Positions 1,987 to 55,138 of a DNA stretch of 64,000 bases are shown here, one piece after another (position 1 is the stretch's first letter; each line of letters starts with the position of its first letter). The stretch spans positions 317,168-381,167 of the forward strand of contig JAHFRD010000001.1 in the NCBI GenBank assembly GCA_023258975.1, written 5' to 3'. The stretch comes from Hydrogenophilales bacterium (GTDB lineage Bacteria; Pseudomonadota; Gammaproteobacteria; Burkholderiales; Thiobacillaceae). The position numbers and the translations under genes were made by a program. The notes below the pieces were generated by a model. It was not told the origin of the DNA. It searched no databases and worked only from the letters and a program-made list of their open reading frames with translations.

Positions 1987-4403
1987 TGCGCCTGCGTGCC
2001 TACGTCTGGCTGTTCTGTGCCGCGCTGTTGCTGGTGGGAACGGTGGCGCGGTTCTTCCCTGAACCGCCGATCGAGACCGACCTGCTGGCGCTGTTGCCGC
2101 CGACCGAAAGGAATCCGCTGGCGGAGTTGGCGGCGACACGGCTGGGGCGGTTGACCGGGGAGCGGGCGGTGTTTCTGGTCGGCCTGCCCAGCGGAGAGGA
2201 GGCGCGGGCGGCAGCGGCGCTGCTTGCCGCTCGTCTCGAAAAAGGCAAGGTGTTCAAGAAGATCATCACTCGCATCCCCACCCCGGACCCGGCGGCTTTG
2301 CTGGATCTCTACACCCCATTTCGGACGGGCCTGATCGCGCCGGATCAGCGAGGCGAGGCCTACTCGGCGAAAGGCTTGGCGGCGCGGCTGGATGCTCACC
2401 TGGCCAGTCCCTTCGGCGCTACCGGAGCGCTGCCACTGGTGGCCGACCCGTTCGGCCTGTTCGATGCCTGGTTACAGGCGCTGCCCTATCGGCAGTTCCG
2501 CCTTACACCGGAGGACGGCTGGCTCACGGTGCGCGAGCGTGGTGATAACGGCGGCATGGCCTGGGTGCTGGTCAGTGGCGAATTGGCCGGATCGGCCTTC
2601 GACCCGGCCTTGCAGCAAGGTTTGCGGGCCACGCTGCCGGCGGCGGAGGAAGAATTAAAGCGGCTCTGGCCCGAGGTGCGGGTGCTGCGCGCCGGCGCGG
2701 TGTTCCATGCGACGGAGGCGCGGATCAGCGCGGAACGCGAAATGAATGTGATCGGCCTGGGCTCGCTGCTCGGCATCATCCTGCTGCTGTTGCTGGCATA
2801 CCGTTCGCCCGGCCCTCTGGCGCTGGGATTGTTGTCGGTGGCCGTCGGCGTGTGCACGGCGGTGTTGACCACCACCTGGGTATTCGGCCGACTGCACCTG
2901 ATGACCCTGGTATTCGGCGCCAGCCTGATCGGCGAGGCCATCGACTATGCCATCCAGTACTTCTCCGCGCGCCTGGGTGCCGGGCCCGGCTGGGATTCGC
3001 GGCGCGGCCTGGCGACGGTGTTTCCAGCCCTGGCGGTGGCGCTGGCGACCAGCGTGGTGGGCTATGCCGCGCTCGCCTTCACGCCCTTCCCCGCTCTACG
3101 CCAGATTGCCGTATTCGCCATCAGCGGCCTGGCGGCGGCCTGGCTCACCGTGGTACTGGTTCTGCCCTGGTGGCTGTCGCGCCCGCAATCCTGGACGCCG
3201 GGCCGCCTGCTGGCCTTGCCGGGGCGCTGGCTGAATCTTTGGCGAGAACGGGTTACGCCACGCGCGTTTCTGATCTTCACCGGGCTGGCCCTGCTGCTGG
3301 CCGCGCCCGGCTGGCTGCGCTTGACCGCCGATGACGACGTGCGCCAACTGATTCAGCCGCCGCCCGACCTGGCCGCGCAGGAGCAGCAACTACGCGCCCT
3401 CAGCGGCCTGGAGGCGGGCAGCCAGTTTTTACTGATCGAGGGCGAAAACACCGAACAAGTCCTGCAACGCGAGGAACTGCTGGCGGCAAAACTGGGCGCG
3501 CGCGGGGTCAAGACGCTGGGCGTCTCCCGCTTCGTGCCCTCATGCCGACAACAAAAACGCGACCACCAGCACCTGCGCGATGCGCTGCCTGGCGCGCGCC
3601 AGGCGCTGCAGGACGCCGGTTTCCGCGCGGCGGCGGTCGCCGACTGGAGCGGGCTGGTCGGCCGCCCCGGTGCCTGTCTCTCCCCGCAAGTATGGCTGGA
3701 TTCGCCCTTGTCCACGCCGTTCCGCCACCTCTGGCTGGGACGGACCGCGCGGGGTATTGCCTCACTCGTCCTCCCCTCCGGCTACGGTGAGGTTGGAGTT
3801 CTCGCCGAGGCGAGCCGGGGGCTGCCCGGCGTGACGCTGGTGGACAAACCCGGCGCGGTGTCGCGCCTGTTCGCGGAATACCGCCGCCTCGGCGTTTATG
3901 TGCTGGCCGCCGCCACATTGCTGATCTTCGCCGTCCTGGCCTGGCGCTATGGCCCGCGTGGCGGCGCGGCGGTGCTGGCGCCGGTGCTCCTTGCGCAGGC
4001 ACTGGCATCGGGACTGCTGGGCTATGCCGGGGTGGCGCAGAATCTTTTCAATCTGCTGGCGCTGCTGCTGGTGCTGGGAGTGGGCATCAATTACGCGATT
4101 TTCCTGTTCGAGGGCGCGCGCGGCGAAGCCACGCGGGAAGCCGCCGCCCTGCTTGGCGTGGTTCTGTCGGCGGCCACCACGCTGCTTTCCTTCGGGCTGC
4201 TGGGTTTGTCTTCCATGCCGGCACTGGCCGGTTTCGGCATCACTCTGGCGCTGGGTATCGGCATCGCGGTGCTGCTGGCGCCGGCGGTACTGGTACTCGC
4301 GGGACGATCGTCGGGGCGTCCCGGGAACGACCCGACCCCAGCGGAGGGCGGCTTGGCTGCTCTTTCCGAGCCGGATGCGCCGCGAACTCGGAGATCCCCA
4401 TGA
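1986..4403 (+). CDS. MMPL/RND-family exporter (aryl polyene cluster)
   Basis: An 805-residue inner-membrane protein with the RND/MMPL layout: an N-terminal helix, a large periplasmic domain (about residues 30-250), a hydrophobic block (about 255-400), a second periplasmic domain (about 440-630) and a second block ending near residue 770. The stretches GSLLGIILLLLLAYRSPGPL and LLALLLVLGVGINYAIFLFE mark the two membrane halves. It probably exports or inserts the aryl polyene lipid with the LolA-like carrier. ATG 1986 overlaps the carrier stop (TGATG). The last 33 residues, from GRSSGRPGNDPTP, are unlike the membrane core and resemble the insert in the SrkA-like gene at 14.2 kb, suggesting a repeat supplied the C-terminus. 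Confidence 0.88.
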   Translation: MRLRAYVWLFCAALLLVGTVARFFPEPPIETDLLALLPPTERNPLAELAATRLGRLTGERAVFLVGLPSGEEARAAAALLAARLEKGKVFKKIITRIPTPDPAALLDLYTPFRTGLIAPDQRGEAYSAKGLAARLDAHLASPFGATGALPLVADPFGLFDAWLQALPYRQFRLTPEDGWLTVRERGDNGGMAWVLVSGELAGSAFDPALQQGLRATLPAAEEELKRLWPEVRVLRAGAVFHATEARISAEREMNVIGLGSLLGIILLLLLAYRSPGPLALGLLSVAVGVCTAVLTTTWVFGRLHLMTLVFGASLIGEAIDYAIQYFSARLGAGPGWDSRRGLATVFPALAVALATSVVGYAALAFTPFPALRQIAVFAISGLAAAWLTVVLVLPWWLSRPQSWTPGRLLALPGRWLNLWRERVTPRAFLIFTGLALLLAAPGWLRLTADDDVRQLIQPPPDLAAQEQQLRALSGLEAGSQFLLIEGENTEQVLQREELLAAKLGARGVKTLGVSRFVPSCRQQKRDHQHLRDALPGARQALQDAGFRAAAVADWSGLVGRPGACLSPQVWLDSPLSTPFRHLWLGRTARGIASLVLPSGYGEVGVLAEASRGLPGVTLVDKPGAVSRLFAEYRRLGVYVLAAATLLIFAVLAWRYGPRGGAAVLAPVLLAQALASGLLGYAGVAQNLFNLLALLLVLGVGINYAIFLFEGARGEATREAAALLGVVLSAATTLLSFGLLGLSSMPALAGFGITLALGIGIAVLLAPAVLVLAGRSSGRPGNDPTPAEGGLAALSEPDAPRTRRSP
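4306..4335 (+). repeat. Copy A of a repeat shared with the SrkA-like gene, lying in the exporter's 3' end
   Basis: Thirty bases here align to 14184-14213 with 24 identities by eye, in the same reading frame. Both translate to a GRS-x-GR-P-x-ND peptide (GRSSGRPGND here, GRSPGRPRND there), in two unrelated proteins. The shared element is probably a dispersed repeat tolerated in frame. Confidence 0.45.
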
Positions 4404-49157: not shown

Positions 49158-51266
49158 TCACACCGCCAGCCTGGACAAATCCGCCACCCGGTTCATGGCG
49201 CGGTGCAGGCGCGCGAGCAGGCCTAAGCGGTTGTTGCGCAGGTTGGCGTCTTCCACGTTGACCATGACGCCATCGAAGAAGTCGTCCACCGGGCCTTTCA
49301 GCGCCGCCAGGGCTTGCAGCGAGGCGGCGTAATCGCCCGCGTCGAAAGCCGCGTCCGCGACCGGCTCGACCTCGGCCAGGGCGGCGTTGAGGGCGATCTC
49401 CGCCGCTTCCTGGAGCAGGTAGGGGTTGCTCACCGGCTCCACCACGCCCTCGACCTTTTTCAGGATGTTGCCCACCCGCTTGTTGGCGGCGGCAAGAGCG
49501 GGCGCCTCCGGCAACGCGGCGAAAGCGCGCACGGCGGCCAGGCGTTGGGGGATGTCGCCCAGGCGTTGCGGGCGCTGCGATACCACCGCATCCACTTCCT
49601 GGGCCGTATAACCCTGCTCGCGCAGCAGGCCGGAGAGCCGCTCGAACATGAAGGCGCCGACCTGGGTGGCCACTTCTTCCGGGAACCCACGCACACCGGC
49701 CGCCACGACCAGCAGGGTATCCAGATGCAGCGGCAGGTTGCGTTCCATCAGGATGCGGATGACGCCGAGCGCGTGGCGACGCAGGGCAAAAGGATCCTTG
49801 TCCCCGGTCGGTATCTGGCCGATGCCGAACAGGCCGACCAGGGTTTCCAGTTTGTCGGCCAGGGCGACGCACAGGCCGACCTCGTTGCGCGGCAGTTCAT
49901 CCCCGGCGAAACGCGGCTTGTAGTGGTCCTCGATGGCATCGGCCACCTCGCCGGGCAGGCCGTCGTTGAGCGCGTAGTAGCGCCCCATGACGCCCTGCAA
50001 CTCGGGGAACTCGCCCACCATGTCGGTGAGCAGGTCGGTTTTGGCCAGCGACGCCGCCTGGGTCACCTGGGCCTCCAGTTCCTTGCCGCCCAGCATCGCC
50101 GCGATGGCGGCGGCGATCATCCGCACCTTCTGGCCGCGCGCCCCCTGGCTGCCCAGCTTGTTGTGATAGACCACGCGGTCCAGCGCCTCGACGCGGGAAG
50201 CGAGCGTCTTCTTGCGATCCTGGTCATAGAAGAACTTGGCGTCGGCCAGACGCGGGCGCACCACCCGCTCGTTGCCACCGATCACCGCGCTCGGGTCGGC
50301 CGGGGAGATGTTGGAAACGATGAGGAACTGGTGGGTCAGTTTCCCGGCGGCGTCCAGGAGCGGGAAATACTTCTGGTTGGCCTTCATGGTGAGAATCAGG
50401 CACTCCTGCGGCACTTCCAGATATTCCGTCTCGAACTGGCACAGAAGCACGTTGGGGCGCTCGACCAGGGCGGTGACCTCGTCCAGCAGGGCGTCATCCT
50501 CGATGGGTTTGACGCCACCACCGACCTTGGCCGCCGCTTCGTGAAGCTGACGCGCGATCTCGGCGCGGCGCGCGGCGAAGCTGGCGATCACCGCGCCTTC
50601 CGCTTGCAACTGCGCGGCGTAGCTGTCCGCTTCCTTGATGGCAACGGGGTGAACGGCGGCCTCGAAACGATGGCCTTGGGTATCGCGGCCGGCATTGAGG
50701 CCGAGGGTGGAAATCGCCACCACGTCCGCGCCATGCAGGGCAACGAGACCGTGCGCCGGGCGCACGAAGTTGACCGTGCTCCAGCCGTCCGCCAATTGAT
50801 AGGTCATGACCTTGGGAATCGGCAGTTTGGCCAAGGCCTCGTCCAGCGCCTTCTGTAGCGCGTCGGCCAGGGTGGCGCCCTCGGCGATGCTGTCATGGAA
50901 CAGGGCTTCGGCCTTACCGTCGGATGCGCGCCTGAGTTGCGGCACAACCGAGGCATCCAGGCCCATCGCGCCCAATCTTTTCAGCAACGCCGGAGTGGCC
51001 TGGCCCTCGGCGGTGAGCGCGATGCCGACCGGCATCAGTTTGTGCGACACCGGCTTGTCAGCGGCCCGCGCCACGACGTTCGTGAGATGCGCGGCCAGAC
51101 GGCGTGGCGAGGCAAAGGACGAGACGACGCTATCAACGGTGACCAGTCCCTGCACCCTGAGGCTGTCGGCGAGGGTAAGGGCAAAGGACTCACCCAGTTT
51201 TTTCAGGGCCTTGGGCGGCAGTTCTTCGACGAACAGTTCTACGAGCAGGGAATGGGTCAAGGTCAT
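49158..51266 (-). CDS. glyS: Glycine--tRNA ligase beta subunit
   Basis: A 702-residue beta subunit, the usual length. LLVELFVEELPPKALKKLGE opens it; EVPQECLILTMKANQKYFPL and VSNISPADPSAVIGGNERVV are central markers, with the C-terminal anticodon-binding-like domain ending FFDGVMVNVEDANLRNNRLG. It forms the alpha2beta2 enzyme with glyQ. Its ATG 51266 overlaps the stop of an unrelated ATPase-DUF4325 gene (ATGA) instead of following glyQ directly. Confidence 0.96.
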   Translation of the reverse strand: MTLTHSLLVELFVEELPPKALKKLGESFALTLADSLRVQGLVTVDSVVSSFASPRRLAAHLTNVVARAADKPVSHKLMPVGIALTAEGQATPALLKRLGAMGLDASVVPQLRRASDGKAEALFHDSIAEGATLADALQKALDEALAKLPIPKVMTYQLADGWSTVNFVRPAHGLVALHGADVVAISTLGLNAGRDTQGHRFEAAVHPVAIKEADSYAAQLQAEGAVIASFAARRAEIARQLHEAAAKVGGGVKPIEDDALLDEVTALVERPNVLLCQFETEYLEVPQECLILTMKANQKYFPLLDAAGKLTHQFLIVSNISPADPSAVIGGNERVVRPRLADAKFFYDQDRKKTLASRVEALDRVVYHNKLGSQGARGQKVRMIAAAIAAMLGGKELEAQVTQAASLAKTDLLTDMVGEFPELQGVMGRYYALNDGLPGEVADAIEDHYKPRFAGDELPRNEVGLCVALADKLETLVGLFGIGQIPTGDKDPFALRRHALGVIRILMERNLPLHLDTLLVVAAGVRGFPEEVATQVGAFMFERLSGLLREQGYTAQEVDAVVSQRPQRLGDIPQRLAAVRAFAALPEAPALAAANKRVGNILKKVEGVVEPVSNPYLLQEAAEIALNAALAEVEPVADAAFDAGDYAASLQALAALKGPVDDFFDGVMVNVEDANLRNNRLGLLARLHRAMNRVADLSRLAV

Positions 51267-52483
51267 TTTTTTACGTGTGACTGGATAATTCTGGATTGCA
51301 CGACATCATCAATGATGCCGCGACAGAATTTGTTTACATTTACAAACCGGATACGCGAGCCAAAGCCGACAAAACCTAGCATCAAGGCTAATTTTCCAAA
51401 TACTTCATCAGCAAACGAGGACGCGATCAATTCAACACCGGAAAAGTCTATTTCCAGAACATCGTTCGGCGCCGTGGCCAACAGGTTCTCGATCTTGTTA
51501 CGGATTCTCAATCCGGTGAGGCGGTTGCCGAATCTCGCGGCTTCGTCCGCCAATTGCATTCGCATCACGCCAATGGTGGTGTCTTTTCCATATAGCGCGT
51601 CGTTGAAAGGATAGGCCGGCGCATCTCCCCATAATGCCCGTTCAATTTCTATCGGAACCGCTGTATTGAGTTGTATATCCACAAAGGTTCCAGGAAACGG
51701 TGGGAAGTCGCCCTTGATCTCCATACGATCATTCATCCATTCCACCCGCCCTTTCTGGGAATGGATGGACAACCGCCCACCCTGGTTTATCTTGACGATC
51801 TGCAATGTCCCGGTAAGCCCTTTGCCCTGCCCGAAATCCGGGCGGGAAGTAATGCCTTCCTTGAGGGCATGCGCGATGGCGTCCTCGTCGTGTTCCTGCA
51901 TGGGGAAGGCCGCACGTATGGTCTGTGGGATGCCCACCCCCCCATCCGCCACCACAACCGCCATATGTTGCGTTTTCGGATGGACGACAACCTGCATCCA
52001 GCCGTGATCGACGCCGGCATGCACCAACACATTGCCCGCCACCTCGTTGAGCATCCACTCGAAAGACTGCAACACGCCTTGCGCGTAGGTCGCGCGTTCC
52101 AGAACCTGATGAATCTGGCTGTCTATCAATTCGTTCAGGCTGGTGTCATCGGAAAAACGGTGCAGCGCATTGGGCTTGTCCGTGATCGGGTGTCCGCCAT
52201 CCGGGCATAAACACGCCGCATAATTGGAATCCAGGATGTAACGCCTGCACACTTCCTCATCGGGCAAAACCAGAGCGAAATCCACTCCATGTGAATATCT
52301 ATATCGTTCGGCCAACACAATCAACGGCACAAAACCATTTGGGAATACGAGCTTCAGATTGGAAAAATTCAGCCGAATATCCCGATGCCCTTGTTTCTCC
52401 ACCAGATTGAACAGGATGGATTGCGCCTTCTGGAAAGCCTGCCAATCGAAACGATCCCAGTTGAAGGCGATTTCGTTGTTCAC
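51263..52483 (-). CDS. GHKL-type ATP-binding protein with C-terminal DUF4325 (STAS-like) domain
   Basis: A 406-residue protein lying between glyQ and glyS. An N-terminal region (about residues 1-125) leads to a histidine-kinase-like ATPase fold: FEWMLNEVAGNVLVHAG has the N-box-type Glu/Asn, AVVVADGGVGIPQTI the G1 box and FGQGKGLTGTLQIVK a later nucleotide motif. The C-terminal about 95 residues (NDVLEIDFSGVELIASSFAD) match DUF4325, a STAS-like domain. No phospho-acceptor His box is seen. The gene is more A+T-rich than its neighbours. GTG 52483 lies two bases after the glyQ stop, and its stop overlaps glyS. A switch or anti-sigma-like role is inferred; nothing here shows a target. Confidence 0.75.
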   Translation of the reverse strand: MNNEIAFNWDRFDWQAFQKAQSILFNLVEKQGHRDIRLNFSNLKLVFPNGFVPLIVLAERYRYSHGVDFALVLPDEEVCRRYILDSNYAACLCPDGGHPITDKPNALHRFSDDTSLNELIDSQIHQVLERATYAQGVLQSFEWMLNEVAGNVLVHAGVDHGWMQVVVHPKTQHMAVVVADGGVGIPQTIRAAFPMQEHDEDAIAHALKEGITSRPDFGQGKGLTGTLQIVKINQGGRLSIHSQKGRVEWMNDRMEIKGDFPPFPGTFVDIQLNTAVPIEIERALWGDAPAYPFNDALYGKDTTIGVMRMQLADEAARFGNRLTGLRIRNKIENLLATAPNDVLEIDFSGVELIASSFADEVFGKLALMLGFVGFGSRIRFVNVNKFCRGIIDDVVQSRIIQSHVKK

Positions 52484-52485
52484 GC

Positions 52486-53427
52486 TCAGGCCCCCTCGAC
52501 CTTGCTCTGGGCAGGCGCTTTCTTCTCGATCTCGGCCAAGGTTTCCTCGGCCCAATCTTTCGGCGCCATAGGGAAGCCGAGACGGGCACGGGAGTCCAGA
52601 TAGGCCTGCGCGACGGCGCGTGCCAGGTTGCGGATGCGGCCGATGTAAGCGGCGCGTTCGGTGACCGAGATGGCGCCGCGCGCGTCGAGCAGGTTGAAGG
52701 TGTGGGCGGCTTTCAGCACCTGTTCATAGCCCGGCAGGGCCAGTTGGTTATCCATCAGGTGTTTGGCCTGCTTCTCGTGGGCGTTGAAGGCGATGAGCAG
52801 GAATTCGACGTCGCTGTGCTCGAAGTTGTAGGTGGACTGTTCCACTTCGTTCTGGTGAAACACGTCGCCGTAACTGACGCCGGGCGAGTATTCCAGGTCG
52901 AACACGTTATCCACGCCTTGCAGATACATGGCCAGGCGTTCCAGGCCATAGGTAATCTCGCCGGTGATCGGCTTGCAGTTGATGCCGCCAACCTGCTGGA
53001 AGTAGGTGAACTGGGTGACTTCCATGCCGTTCAGCCACACCTCCCAACCCAGGCCCCAGGCGCCCAGGGTGGGGTTCTCCCAGTCGTCCTCGACGAAGCG
53101 GATGTCGTTCTGTTTCAGGTCGAAACCGAGAGCTTCGAGCGAGCCGAGATACAACTCCAGGATGTTTTCCGGCGCCGGCTTCAGGACTACCTGGAACTGG
53201 TAGTAGTGCTGCAGGCGATTGGGGTTCTTGCCGTAACGGCCGTCCTTGGGGCGGCGCGAGGGCTGCACATAGGCGGCTTTCCAGGGTTCCGGGCCGAGCG
53301 AGCGGAGAAAGGTGGCGGTATGGCTGGTGCCGGCGCCGACTTCGAGATCGTAGGGTTGCAGCAGGGTGCAGCCCTGTTCCCCCCAGAAGCGCTGGAGGGT
53401 GAGGAGGATGTCCTGAAAAGCGGGCAT
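52486..53427 (-). CDS. glyQ: Glycine--tRNA ligase alpha subunit
   Basis: A 313-residue class II aminoacyl-tRNA synthetase subunit. [20 protein letters not shown] and [20 protein letters not shown] open it, [20 protein letters not shown] is motif 2-like, and [16 protein letters not shown]-type [20 protein letters not shown] is motif 3. ATG 53427 is the family start; the long upstream frame is unused. glyQ normally abuts glyS; here the ATPase gene is interposed. Confidence 0.96.
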
Positions 53428-53682: not shown

Positions 53683-53838
53683 ATGACACTCACCCTCACC
53701 CCCAGCCTGACCATCCGCTTCCGCTGCGCGGCGGACACCGCATGGCACATGATCCGCACGCACTCGCGGCGCCTGTCCATCGTCAGCCTGTCCTTCCTGA
53801 AGATGGAAGTGCTGGTGTTCAAGTACCACGGGAAATGA
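53683..53838 (+). CDS. Small protein of unknown function (51 residues)
   Basis: A 51-codon frame with GGAG seven to ten bases before ATG 53683. The product [20 protein letters not shown]... is basic, with many Ser/Thr/Arg and a C-terminal [17 protein letters not shown]. It is too short for most gene callers and overlaps the convergent kinase 3' end by 20 bases. The 255 bases upstream (53428-53682) hold a GC-rich palindromic stretch around 53500-53530 but no other gene. Whether it is expressed is uncertain. Confidence 0.4.
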
Positions 53839-55138
53839 TCAGGGCCGCGTCGAGTCCACCGCCCGCGCGGTGGCTGAATTCGATGCGCCAGCCATAGGCA
53901 TCCGCCAACTGCCGCGCGATCGCCAGCCCCAGCCCACTGCCGCCGCTATCCCGGCTACGCGAGCCTTCCAGGCGATGGAACGGCCGGAACACCGCCACCC
54001 GCTGATCCTCCGGAATCCCGGGTCCGCGATCCAGCACGGAAATGCGCGCCTCCTCCTCTGCGCAGCGCAGTTCCAGATCAATCGTTTCCTCGCCGCCATA
54101 GCGCCTCGCGTTGTCCAGCAGGTTGCCGACGATGCGGCGTAGCGCGGCCTCGCCCGCTTTCACCGTGCAAGCCGCCGCAGGTGGTCGCCAGTTCACCGGC
54201 CCCAGGCGCGCGGCGGTTTCCGCCAGGTCGCCCAATAGCTCCGTCAGATTGCAGTCCTTAAGGTCGTTGGCCTGAAGCGCGCGGGAGAACACCAGCATGT
54301 CGCCGATCAGCCGGTTCATTTCGTCCAGATCGCGCTCCATGCGGCCCACCTGCGCGGCATCGGCGTCGTCCAGCATGGACAGCGCCAGCTTCAAGCGGGT
54401 GATCGGCGTGCGCAGATCGTGGGAGATGCCGGAGAGCAGCACGGTACGGTTTTCCAGGAGCGCATGGACTTCACCGGCCATGCGATTGAAAGCGGCCGTG
54501 AGTTCGCGGATTTCCCTGGGGCCGGTTTCCGGCAGCGGCACCGGGTCGCGCCCCTGCCCCACTTCACCGGCTTTCTCGGCCAGGCTGTTCAACTGGCGGC
54601 TGGCGCGGCCAACCATGAGCAGCGCGGTCACCACGGTCAGGGCGGCGCCCAGCAGGAAGACGCCGACCGCCGCCAGCGGGGCTTGCAGCGCATAGCGATC
54701 CTGGCTGAAGCCGACGCGCAACTGTTTGTCCGCCACCTGTAGATCCAGCCACACCCAGTTGGCGTCCGACCCGCGTTTGAGCACCACCGTCTGCCGCATG
54801 CGCTGACCAAGGGAAGCCGTCAGGAGATCGCCGAACAGGGTATGGGGCGCCATATCGGCTGGAACGTTCGCGAGCAGCGGCTTCGTCGCCGCCCCCAGGC
54901 CCAGATCATGCCGGAACGCCAACTCCATTTCGTAATCGGTGCGGGTCTGCGGCGGCAGTTCCACCCAGGTCTTGGCCGCCAGGGAAATCTTCGCCGCCAG
55001 ATCGTCCGCCGAACGTTCCGCCATCGGCCGGATCAGGGTCTGCCAGACCACCGCGAAGGCCAGGGTCTCGAACACCAGAAACGCCGCCAGCAGGGCGGCG
55101 GCGGTGCGGCCGAACAGGGTGCGGGGGAGCAGGCTCAA
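53819..55138 (-). CDS. Sensor histidine kinase, EnvZ type
   Basis: A 439-residue kinase: helix 1 ([20 protein letters not shown]), periplasmic loop (about residues 35-150), helix 2 ([16 protein letters not shown]), HAMP (about 175-225), then HisKA with [17 protein letters not shown] and a HATPase with [14 protein letters not shown] and [18 protein letters not shown]. Such kinases respond to osmotic or envelope state and phosphorylate an OmpR-like partner. Its start overlaps the regulator stop, so they are co-translated, regulator first. The periplasmic sensor is not one I can assign to a ligand. Confidence 0.92.

Follow-up and report, generated by a model that had tools for sequence, protein, structure and literature searches.

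Kinases of the SpoIIAB/RsbW type phosphorylate a serine on a STAS protein and need no phospho-acceptor histidine box for this reaction. Kinases and STAS substrates are also paired in the CapK/CapS and VapKSC systems, which have been described in EMBO J in June 2026 (PMC13373217; structure PDB 9z7o). According to that study, the GHKL kinase CapK is activated by single-stranded DNA (ssDNA), and its target is a serine of CapS, a STAS repressor, which it phosphorylates; in VapKSC the toxin VapC is inhibited by the STAS protein VapS but not by the phosphomimic S48E. The same study reports about 2 logs of protection by the VapKSC operon against one E. coli phage and treats ssDNA activation of VapK as predicted and mutated, not shown biochemically. 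A switch of this type turns on anti-phage toxins after DNA damage. In this study we describe a gene, here called KS, that encodes a protein of 406 aa and lies between glyQ and glyS in a stretch of 64,000 nucleotides from a Hydrogenophilales bacterium (GCA_023258975.1, contig JAHFRD010000001.1, positions 317,168 to 381,167; this whole stretch is the window, and coordinates without a locus name are positions in it). We consider it fairly probable that the KS protein is a single-chain partner switch resembling VapK and VapS, made of a STAS domain, a GHKL serine kinase and a VapS-like STAS domain, and that it probably is defensive.

Like VapKSC, the KS protein combines a STAS-GHKL kinase with a VapS-homologous STAS domain bearing a serine at the acceptor position. 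Unlike VapKSC, it has kinase and substrate in one polypeptide encoded between glyQ and glyS, and the vapC (PIN) gene that belongs to the VapKSC operon is missing from the KS operon, and no PIN of that type was found in the genomes that carry KS. It resembles CapK and CapS in being a kinase/STAS-substrate pair, which in the latter case is often found near restriction-modification (R-M) and other immune genes, but CapK has an N-terminal helix-turn-helix (HTH) and CapS a C-terminal winged HTH (wHTH) in the description given there, and no HTH was detected in KS. SpoIIAB/SpoIIAA and RsbW/RsbV share with KS the fold of the kinase and STAS parts as well as the kinase boxes; however, they are separate proteins in a sigma-factor circuit and their sequence similarity to the KS family is weak. 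Finally, the N-terminal part of the PADLOC DrmA model has the architecture of KS, whereas its positions ∼637-1736 have no counterpart in KS.

Results

The C-terminal domain of the KS protein (residues 304-406; 51266..51574, minus strand, as are all features of the window given below) matches DUF4325 (PF14213) with 46.2 bits (cut-off 23; E 3.7e-12). Folded alone it reached a predicted local distance difference test score (pLDDT) of 92.9 and matched STAS domains, namely SLC26A11 (Z 8.2), RsbS (7.4) and SpoIIAA (6.2), in agreement with the STAS-like DUF4325 call of the original prediction. A profile of 23 DUF4325 domains matched Escherichia VapS (PDB 9z7o) with E 5.2e-15; the next best match was at 0.13 and STAS anti-sigma antagonists were at 0.7 or worse. 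VapS 9z7o was not among the fold matches listed for the domain in a structure library ending April 2026. Aligned with VapS, residues S355-S356 (51416..51421) form the predicted phosphosite: the S355 column corresponds to Ser66 of the 9z7o chain, which, given an 18-residue tag offset, should be S48 of PMC13373217. Both positions are Ser in all 11 fused proteins of our alignment A5, and position 355 is Ser or Thr in 20 of its 23 rows, the other three rows having Ser at 356. The small STAS proteins of the two K-S-PIN operons that were scanned are likewise DUF4325 by Pfam. By homology and model, the KS protein thus appears to amount to a VapK and a VapS joined in a single chain, and the partner that the original prediction had missed would be fused in cis as a VapS-like substrate.

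An AlphaFold2 model built from eight aligned sequences, including that of the window (mean pLDDT 85.5; predicted template modelling score 0.82), reads STAS - GHKL - STAS, a clear GHKL kinase fold with STAS on both sides. Residues 1-94 of the N-terminal STAS domain (residues 1-100; 52184..52483) superpose on SpoIIAA (1thn_B, Z 9.3, 2.5 Å, 91 residues; VIA-align, as for the following matches), while Pfam found no domain in the first ∼100 residues. For the serine-kinase-like ATPase domain (residues 104-276; 51656..52174) the best fold match was SpoIIAB (1til_E, Z 14.5, 2.4 Å, 132 residues), with SpoIIAB matches at Z 13.8-14.5, followed by RsbW (6m36_A, 11.5), LvrC (11.4) and topoisomerase (9.7); the histidine kinase CpxA reached 9.5, well below SpoIIAB. 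The top PDB rows of Foldseek (Hsp90, TRAP1, TopoVI) had low TM-scores and were set aside. On the level of sequence the family profile was weakly similar to SpoIIAB (E 0.14-0.23), and HATPase_c scored 26.2 bits in Pfam, slightly below its cut-off of 26.4. The catalytic boxes are intact: E147 and N151 of the N-box (52031..52045), H155 beyond it, D180, G182 and G184 of the G1 box D180-x-G182-x-G184 (51932..51946), G220, G222 and L223 of the G2 box QGKGLTG (219-225; 51809..51829), and G265-T266 do not vary in any of the 23 aligned rows, one of which is that of the window.

HisKA was not found in the KS protein by Pfam at E up to 1, in the same scan that gave HisKA at 7.2e-12 in the neighbouring open reading frame (ORF) 53822-55138. 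No HTH family was matched at that threshold either, and the structure model held no additional domain. By its modelled fold, the kinase domain is therefore best described as the SpoIIAB/RsbW Ser/Thr-kinase type and not as the histidine-kinase-like ATPase of the original prediction, which had rightly reported a missing phospho-acceptor His box but had taken this to leave the function open; it does not, because Ser/Thr kinases of this type need none. Since no HTH was detected, it is unlikely, judging from its sequence, that the KS protein alone acts as a repressor of the CapS type.

Relatives of KS consist of one chain or of two neighbouring genes (K+S), the first for an ATPase of ∼300 aa and the second for a DUF4325 protein of ∼100 aa; several loci have a PIN nuclease gene as a third member (K+S+PIN). 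Two-gene forms were found on an Alicyclobacillus plasmid, in streptococcal prophages, on Hymenobacter plasmids and in genome G040, and three-gene forms on the Deinococcus plasmid P5, in G018 (same genus as the window), on viral contig L053 and on fecal contig L062, to which a phylum-wide search added G131, G128 and G268 (loci with either form: L039, L053, L054, L062, L132, L134, L137). The Deinococcus PIN protein matches VapC of 9z7o (E 9.7e-9). As far as homology can tell, these separate genes show what was fused in the KS protein. In the phylum-wide search the profile matched 14 of 398 genomes, mostly with the kinase alone or with two- and three-gene forms. One-chain forms were a minority there: that of the window, one in G243, whose 3.6-kb contig shows no informative neighbours, and more distant proteins of 423-424 aa in G109 and G129. 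In the genome of the window, a separate pair of a GHKL kinase and a DUF4325 gene also lies 37 kb past the window among small ORFs (C22:412000-424000; L160, 5712-7191).

The surroundings of these relatives are repeatedly phages, plasmids and defence loci, and to this extent the original suggestion of a placement favoured by defence or growth-control genes is supported. One-chain forms lie between HsdR (ResIII, EcoEI_R_C) and HsdM matches (MT837999), on a Nostoc plasmid typed conjugative and on viral contigs L047-L051 and L065; the gene of L047 follows ORFs that we read by eye as lysis genes (holin/endolysin). Two-gene forms occur in temperate phages, within their accessory region (streptococcal, Marinitoga MPV1 and Gordonia Phishy, the small protein of the last, L060, being placed in A5 by position, without a Pfam match). 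In G018 the VapKSC-like three-gene operon stands beside HmaA/HmaB and a PDC-M38 pair (L039, 49-10377). The genome of the window itself has a BREX locus in which a 334-aa wHTH-GHKL-DUF4325 fusion (C29; L159, 4374-5378) lies between BrxC and PglX; the HTH and GHKL parts of the fusion are below the Pfam cut-offs. A PIN gene (3261-3683) lies near this fusion, and at the corresponding BREX place of G017 (C33; L161, 4934-5641) a 235-aa ORF reads as PIN plus a C-terminal DUF4325 part. The STAS-GHKL-DUF4325 architecture also occurs at positions ∼56-395 of the 1750 positions of the PADLOC DrmA model of DISARM (PDLC02567). Membership of KS in DISARM was rejected: the window protein matches positions 126-392 only and has no part like the DrmA-type proteins of other genomes, which match positions ∼637-1736, and the matches obtained from 299 genomes included no full-length fusion of K, S and DrmA.

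The KS gene (51263..52483) starts with GTG and is supported by ORF, Pfam, structure model and homologues. Upstream lies glyQ for the alpha subunit of glycyl-tRNA synthetase (52486..53427; PF02091, 3.7e-148; start codon located by script), downstream glyS for the beta subunit (49158..51266; PF02092, 1.1e-181), both matching their Pfam models over the full length. On the minus strand, the glyQ TGA is followed by two bases (GC; 52484..52488 with the stop) and then by the KS start at 52483, and the KS stop TGA (51263-51265) overlaps the glyS ATG as ATGA (51263..51266), with no Shine-Dalgarno-like site upstream. The coordinates given originally, with a start two bases after glyQ and an end overlapping glyS, are therefore correct, and so is the description of an AT-richer gene: its GC content is 52.1% compared to 63.6% in the window, and 0.62 at third codon positions compared to 0.83-0.85 in glyQ and glyS.

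Of 23 genomes in the genus, four have close homologues (own, G006, G011, G017). An order-wide draw of 399 genomes yielded two carriers, the own genome and G366, and one of nine genomes in the family of G366 has the gene; several of the compared genomes are incomplete, so that these absences are approximate. In all five carriers the gene sits in the same slot between glyQ and glyS. It is real and beyond chance, because the whole ORF is kept at the same place in four other genomes, and the ratio of nonsynonymous to synonymous substitution rates (dN/dS) among the four carriers of the genus is 0.06-0.13, compared to 0.07-0.11 for glyS (no dS estimate was obtained against G366). These ratios point to purifying selection. 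By this check on relatives, KS is supported as an accessory gene and not a conserved member of the glyQS operon.

Among the 20 genus genomes with a readable junction (G009 was dropped for a contig end, G013 and G002 for want of a glyS match), four had the KS gene and one, G012, an unrelated gene for a 578-aa AAA_21/AAA_15 ATPase (L037, 9904-11640; PADLOC AriA 3e-24, NsnB, Old). Six had 99-106 bp, with inverted repeats in the three that were checked, and in nine glyQ and glyS overlapped or were a few bases apart. Outside the genus we read 40 junctions, hand-picked among the best-scoring matches listed (247 of 250 genomes matched) and hence leaning to closer relatives; for L094 the glyS start was taken from the glyS search matches. 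Gaps of -13 to 85 bp were found in 38 of them, one was that of G366, and one had a 430-bp insert with a 94-aa GIY-YIG ORF (L071 of G494, 2259-2543). The glyQ-glyS junction tolerates insertions, and therefore a functional link to glycyl-tRNA synthetase is not needed to explain the place of KS.

In the glyS tree G366 groups with its own family (100/99), and the four carriers of the genus form one group (93/94, below the program's star). Because the two groups are apart, the KS gene must have arrived in this slot on two or more occasions or else have been lost very often; transfer of the whole operon to G366 is disfavoured by the same tree. Between G017 and G011 the KS gene is 97.3% identical (dS 0.08), compared to 86.4% for glyS (dS 0.76) and 94.0% for glyQ (dS 0.36), and the tract of high identity is gene-sized, from near the end of glyQ to just inside glyS. 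This pattern points to a recent exchange of the gene between these genomes, most simply by recombination between the flanks. Identity between carriers was 51-80% for the N-terminal STAS domain, 86-93% for the kinase and 76-97% for DUF4325, setting aside for these ranges the near-identical pair G017/G011 (STAS 98%, kinase 99%). The N-terminal STAS domain evolves fastest, as expected for a sensing surface.

We compared the region before glyS at 60 loci, one of which had no readable glyS; four of the five carriers are close relatives and the sample is small. None of the five carriers has a Shine-Dalgarno-like hexamer there (best 2-3 of 6 to AGGAGG), whereas 45 of 54 non-carriers have at least 4 of 6 matches, usually in the glyQ tail. 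Among the nine non-carriers below this value are G012, which has an insert of its own, and three of the six congeners with repeats at the junction. Because of the ATGA overlap and the missing Shine-Dalgarno site, translation of glyS probably depends on re-initiation behind the KS gene, the insert taking over ribosome loading. The original statement that KS disturbs neither neighbour consequently applies to the reading frames, which are intact, and not to the glyS Shine-Dalgarno hexamer. Such coupling would keep KS constantly expressed and make its loss by frameshift costly. The coupling to glyS expression suggested originally is plausible, and the missing site gives it a more definite form.

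Discussion

How might such a protein work? By analogy with CapK and VapK, from which we infer the kinase activity, the signal and the defensive role, a signal such as ssDNA from damage or phage replication might bind between the N-terminal STAS domain and the kinase. The kinase would then phosphorylate S355 (or S356) of the C-terminal STAS domain, in cis or within a dimer, and the phosphorylated domain would change its binding, releasing or recruiting a third protein that carries the response. The gene moves horizontally and has its place at the glyQ-glyS junction, and from there it probably takes over the ribosome loading of glyS. We regard the reading of KS as kinase and substrate as likely, and we lean slightly towards a role in defence.

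Several observations weigh against this reading. A VapKSC-type PIN profile (A7) found no match at E up to 0.01 in any of the five carrier genomes; the control search found 3 of 3 control genomes, one of them (G131) outside the profile, and an earlier PIN search of the carriers carries little weight as it used one distant query. The genome of the window does contain PIN genes from other families, for example in the BREX locus. No vapC lies beside the KS gene, whose neighbours are glyQ and glyS, and neither a wHTH nor a PIN is fused to its protein. The neighbourhood is one of housekeeping genes and not a defence island, and the K+S pair of G040 stands beside a gene that we read by eye as nrdB. 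The defence link of the family is an association, with neighbour counts made without a control set. As to the protein, the fold matches of the C-terminal domain are modest (Z 6-8), and in the BREX-locus fusion of the same genome the usual Ser of the phosphosite is replaced by Gln-Ala, so that phosphorylation at this position is not universal. Position 47 is F or Y in all but one of the 11 fused proteins, the exception being R in L051; however, F47 and the F of the VapK-type WFDA motif stand in adjacent columns, and the ssDNA-contact aromatic (VapK F54, CapK W68) was therefore set aside as support.

A classical anti-sigma/anti-anti-sigma regulator, in which the C-terminal STAS domain binds or frees a sigma factor or other transcription regulator in a housekeeping stress response with no role against phages, is the strongest alternative, though unlikely. 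It accounts for SpoIIAB and RsbW as the closest solved kinase folds and for the RsbS/SpoIIAA STAS fold at the C-terminus. It does not fit the patchy distribution and the exchange between species, nor homologues that are cargo of phages and plasmids or part of R-M, Hma and BREX loci, and the C-terminal sequence is related to VapS, STAS anti-sigma antagonists scoring E 0.7 or worse.

It is very unlikely that KS regulates glycyl-tRNA synthetase or translation, with a kinase that acts on GlyQ/GlyS and a place in the operon that is functional. All five carriers do have it in exactly this slot, tightly coupled to glyS, but relatives of the same architecture live elsewhere (phage contigs, an hsd locus, a plasmid), most genomes with glyQS have no KS gene, and the slot also holds the AAA ATPase gene of G012 and short repeats in six congeners, as expected of an insertion-tolerant site. 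No more attractive is a one-gene alarm, a self-contained kinase/substrate switch activated by DNA damage, in which the co-translated glycyl-tRNA synthetase serves as the effector in place of VapC, whether the switch binds it, phosphorylates it or controls how glyS is re-initiated; we hold this for improbable, marginally more so than the preceding idea. Still further down is a conserved translational operon member that was secondarily lost in most species. The same slot in two families and the single glyS group of the genus carriers would agree with it, but G366 groups with its own family by glyS while eight of the nine genomes of that family lack the gene, 397 of the 399 genomes of the order-wide draw have none, and the recombination tract is gene-sized. 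A sensor histidine kinase that no longer has a His box and a functionless, decaying passenger are both hardly credible and were rejected, as the name HATPase_c in Pfam and a GC content unlike the host are set against intact GHKL boxes, no HisKA match, a fold closer to serine kinases (Z 14.5 compared to 9.5 for CpxA) and a dN/dS of 0.06-0.13, about as low as that of glyS.

In favouring the single-chain partner switch we add to a kind of kinase-substrate switch that is already known; new here are the single chain, the lack of VapC or wHTH, and the place in a tRNA-synthetase operon. On the KS family, PMC13373217 alone was recognised among the VapKSC-family literature as far as its texts were accessible. 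Its main text does not contain 'fusion', 'single protein' or 'single polypeptide' and uses 'fused' in passages on tags or a reference, and its datasets may list single-chain forms. For DUF4325 the accessible parts of the literature gave mentions in tables only, and for PF14213 none was found; searches for an insertion between glyQ and glyS and for a single-chain KS form in a tRNA-synthetase operon likewise found no description. DUF4325 is a domain of 'unknown function' in Pfam, and the link to VapS gives it a function. An orphan 'histidine kinase' becomes a serine-kinase switch with named residues, and a single-chain form without VapC or wHTH raises the question of what else such switches control. 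Moreover, the glyQ-glyS junction emerges as a slot for accessory genes, in which a defence-type gene lies outside a defence island and probably loads ribosomes for an essential gene.

Additional observations

The glyS gene itself varies in two of the genomes that we compared. In G020 (L026/L029) and G005 (L028/L030) the glyS matches fall into two pieces, 135 and 69 bp apart, within one open frame, corresponding to an in-frame insertion near query residue 525.

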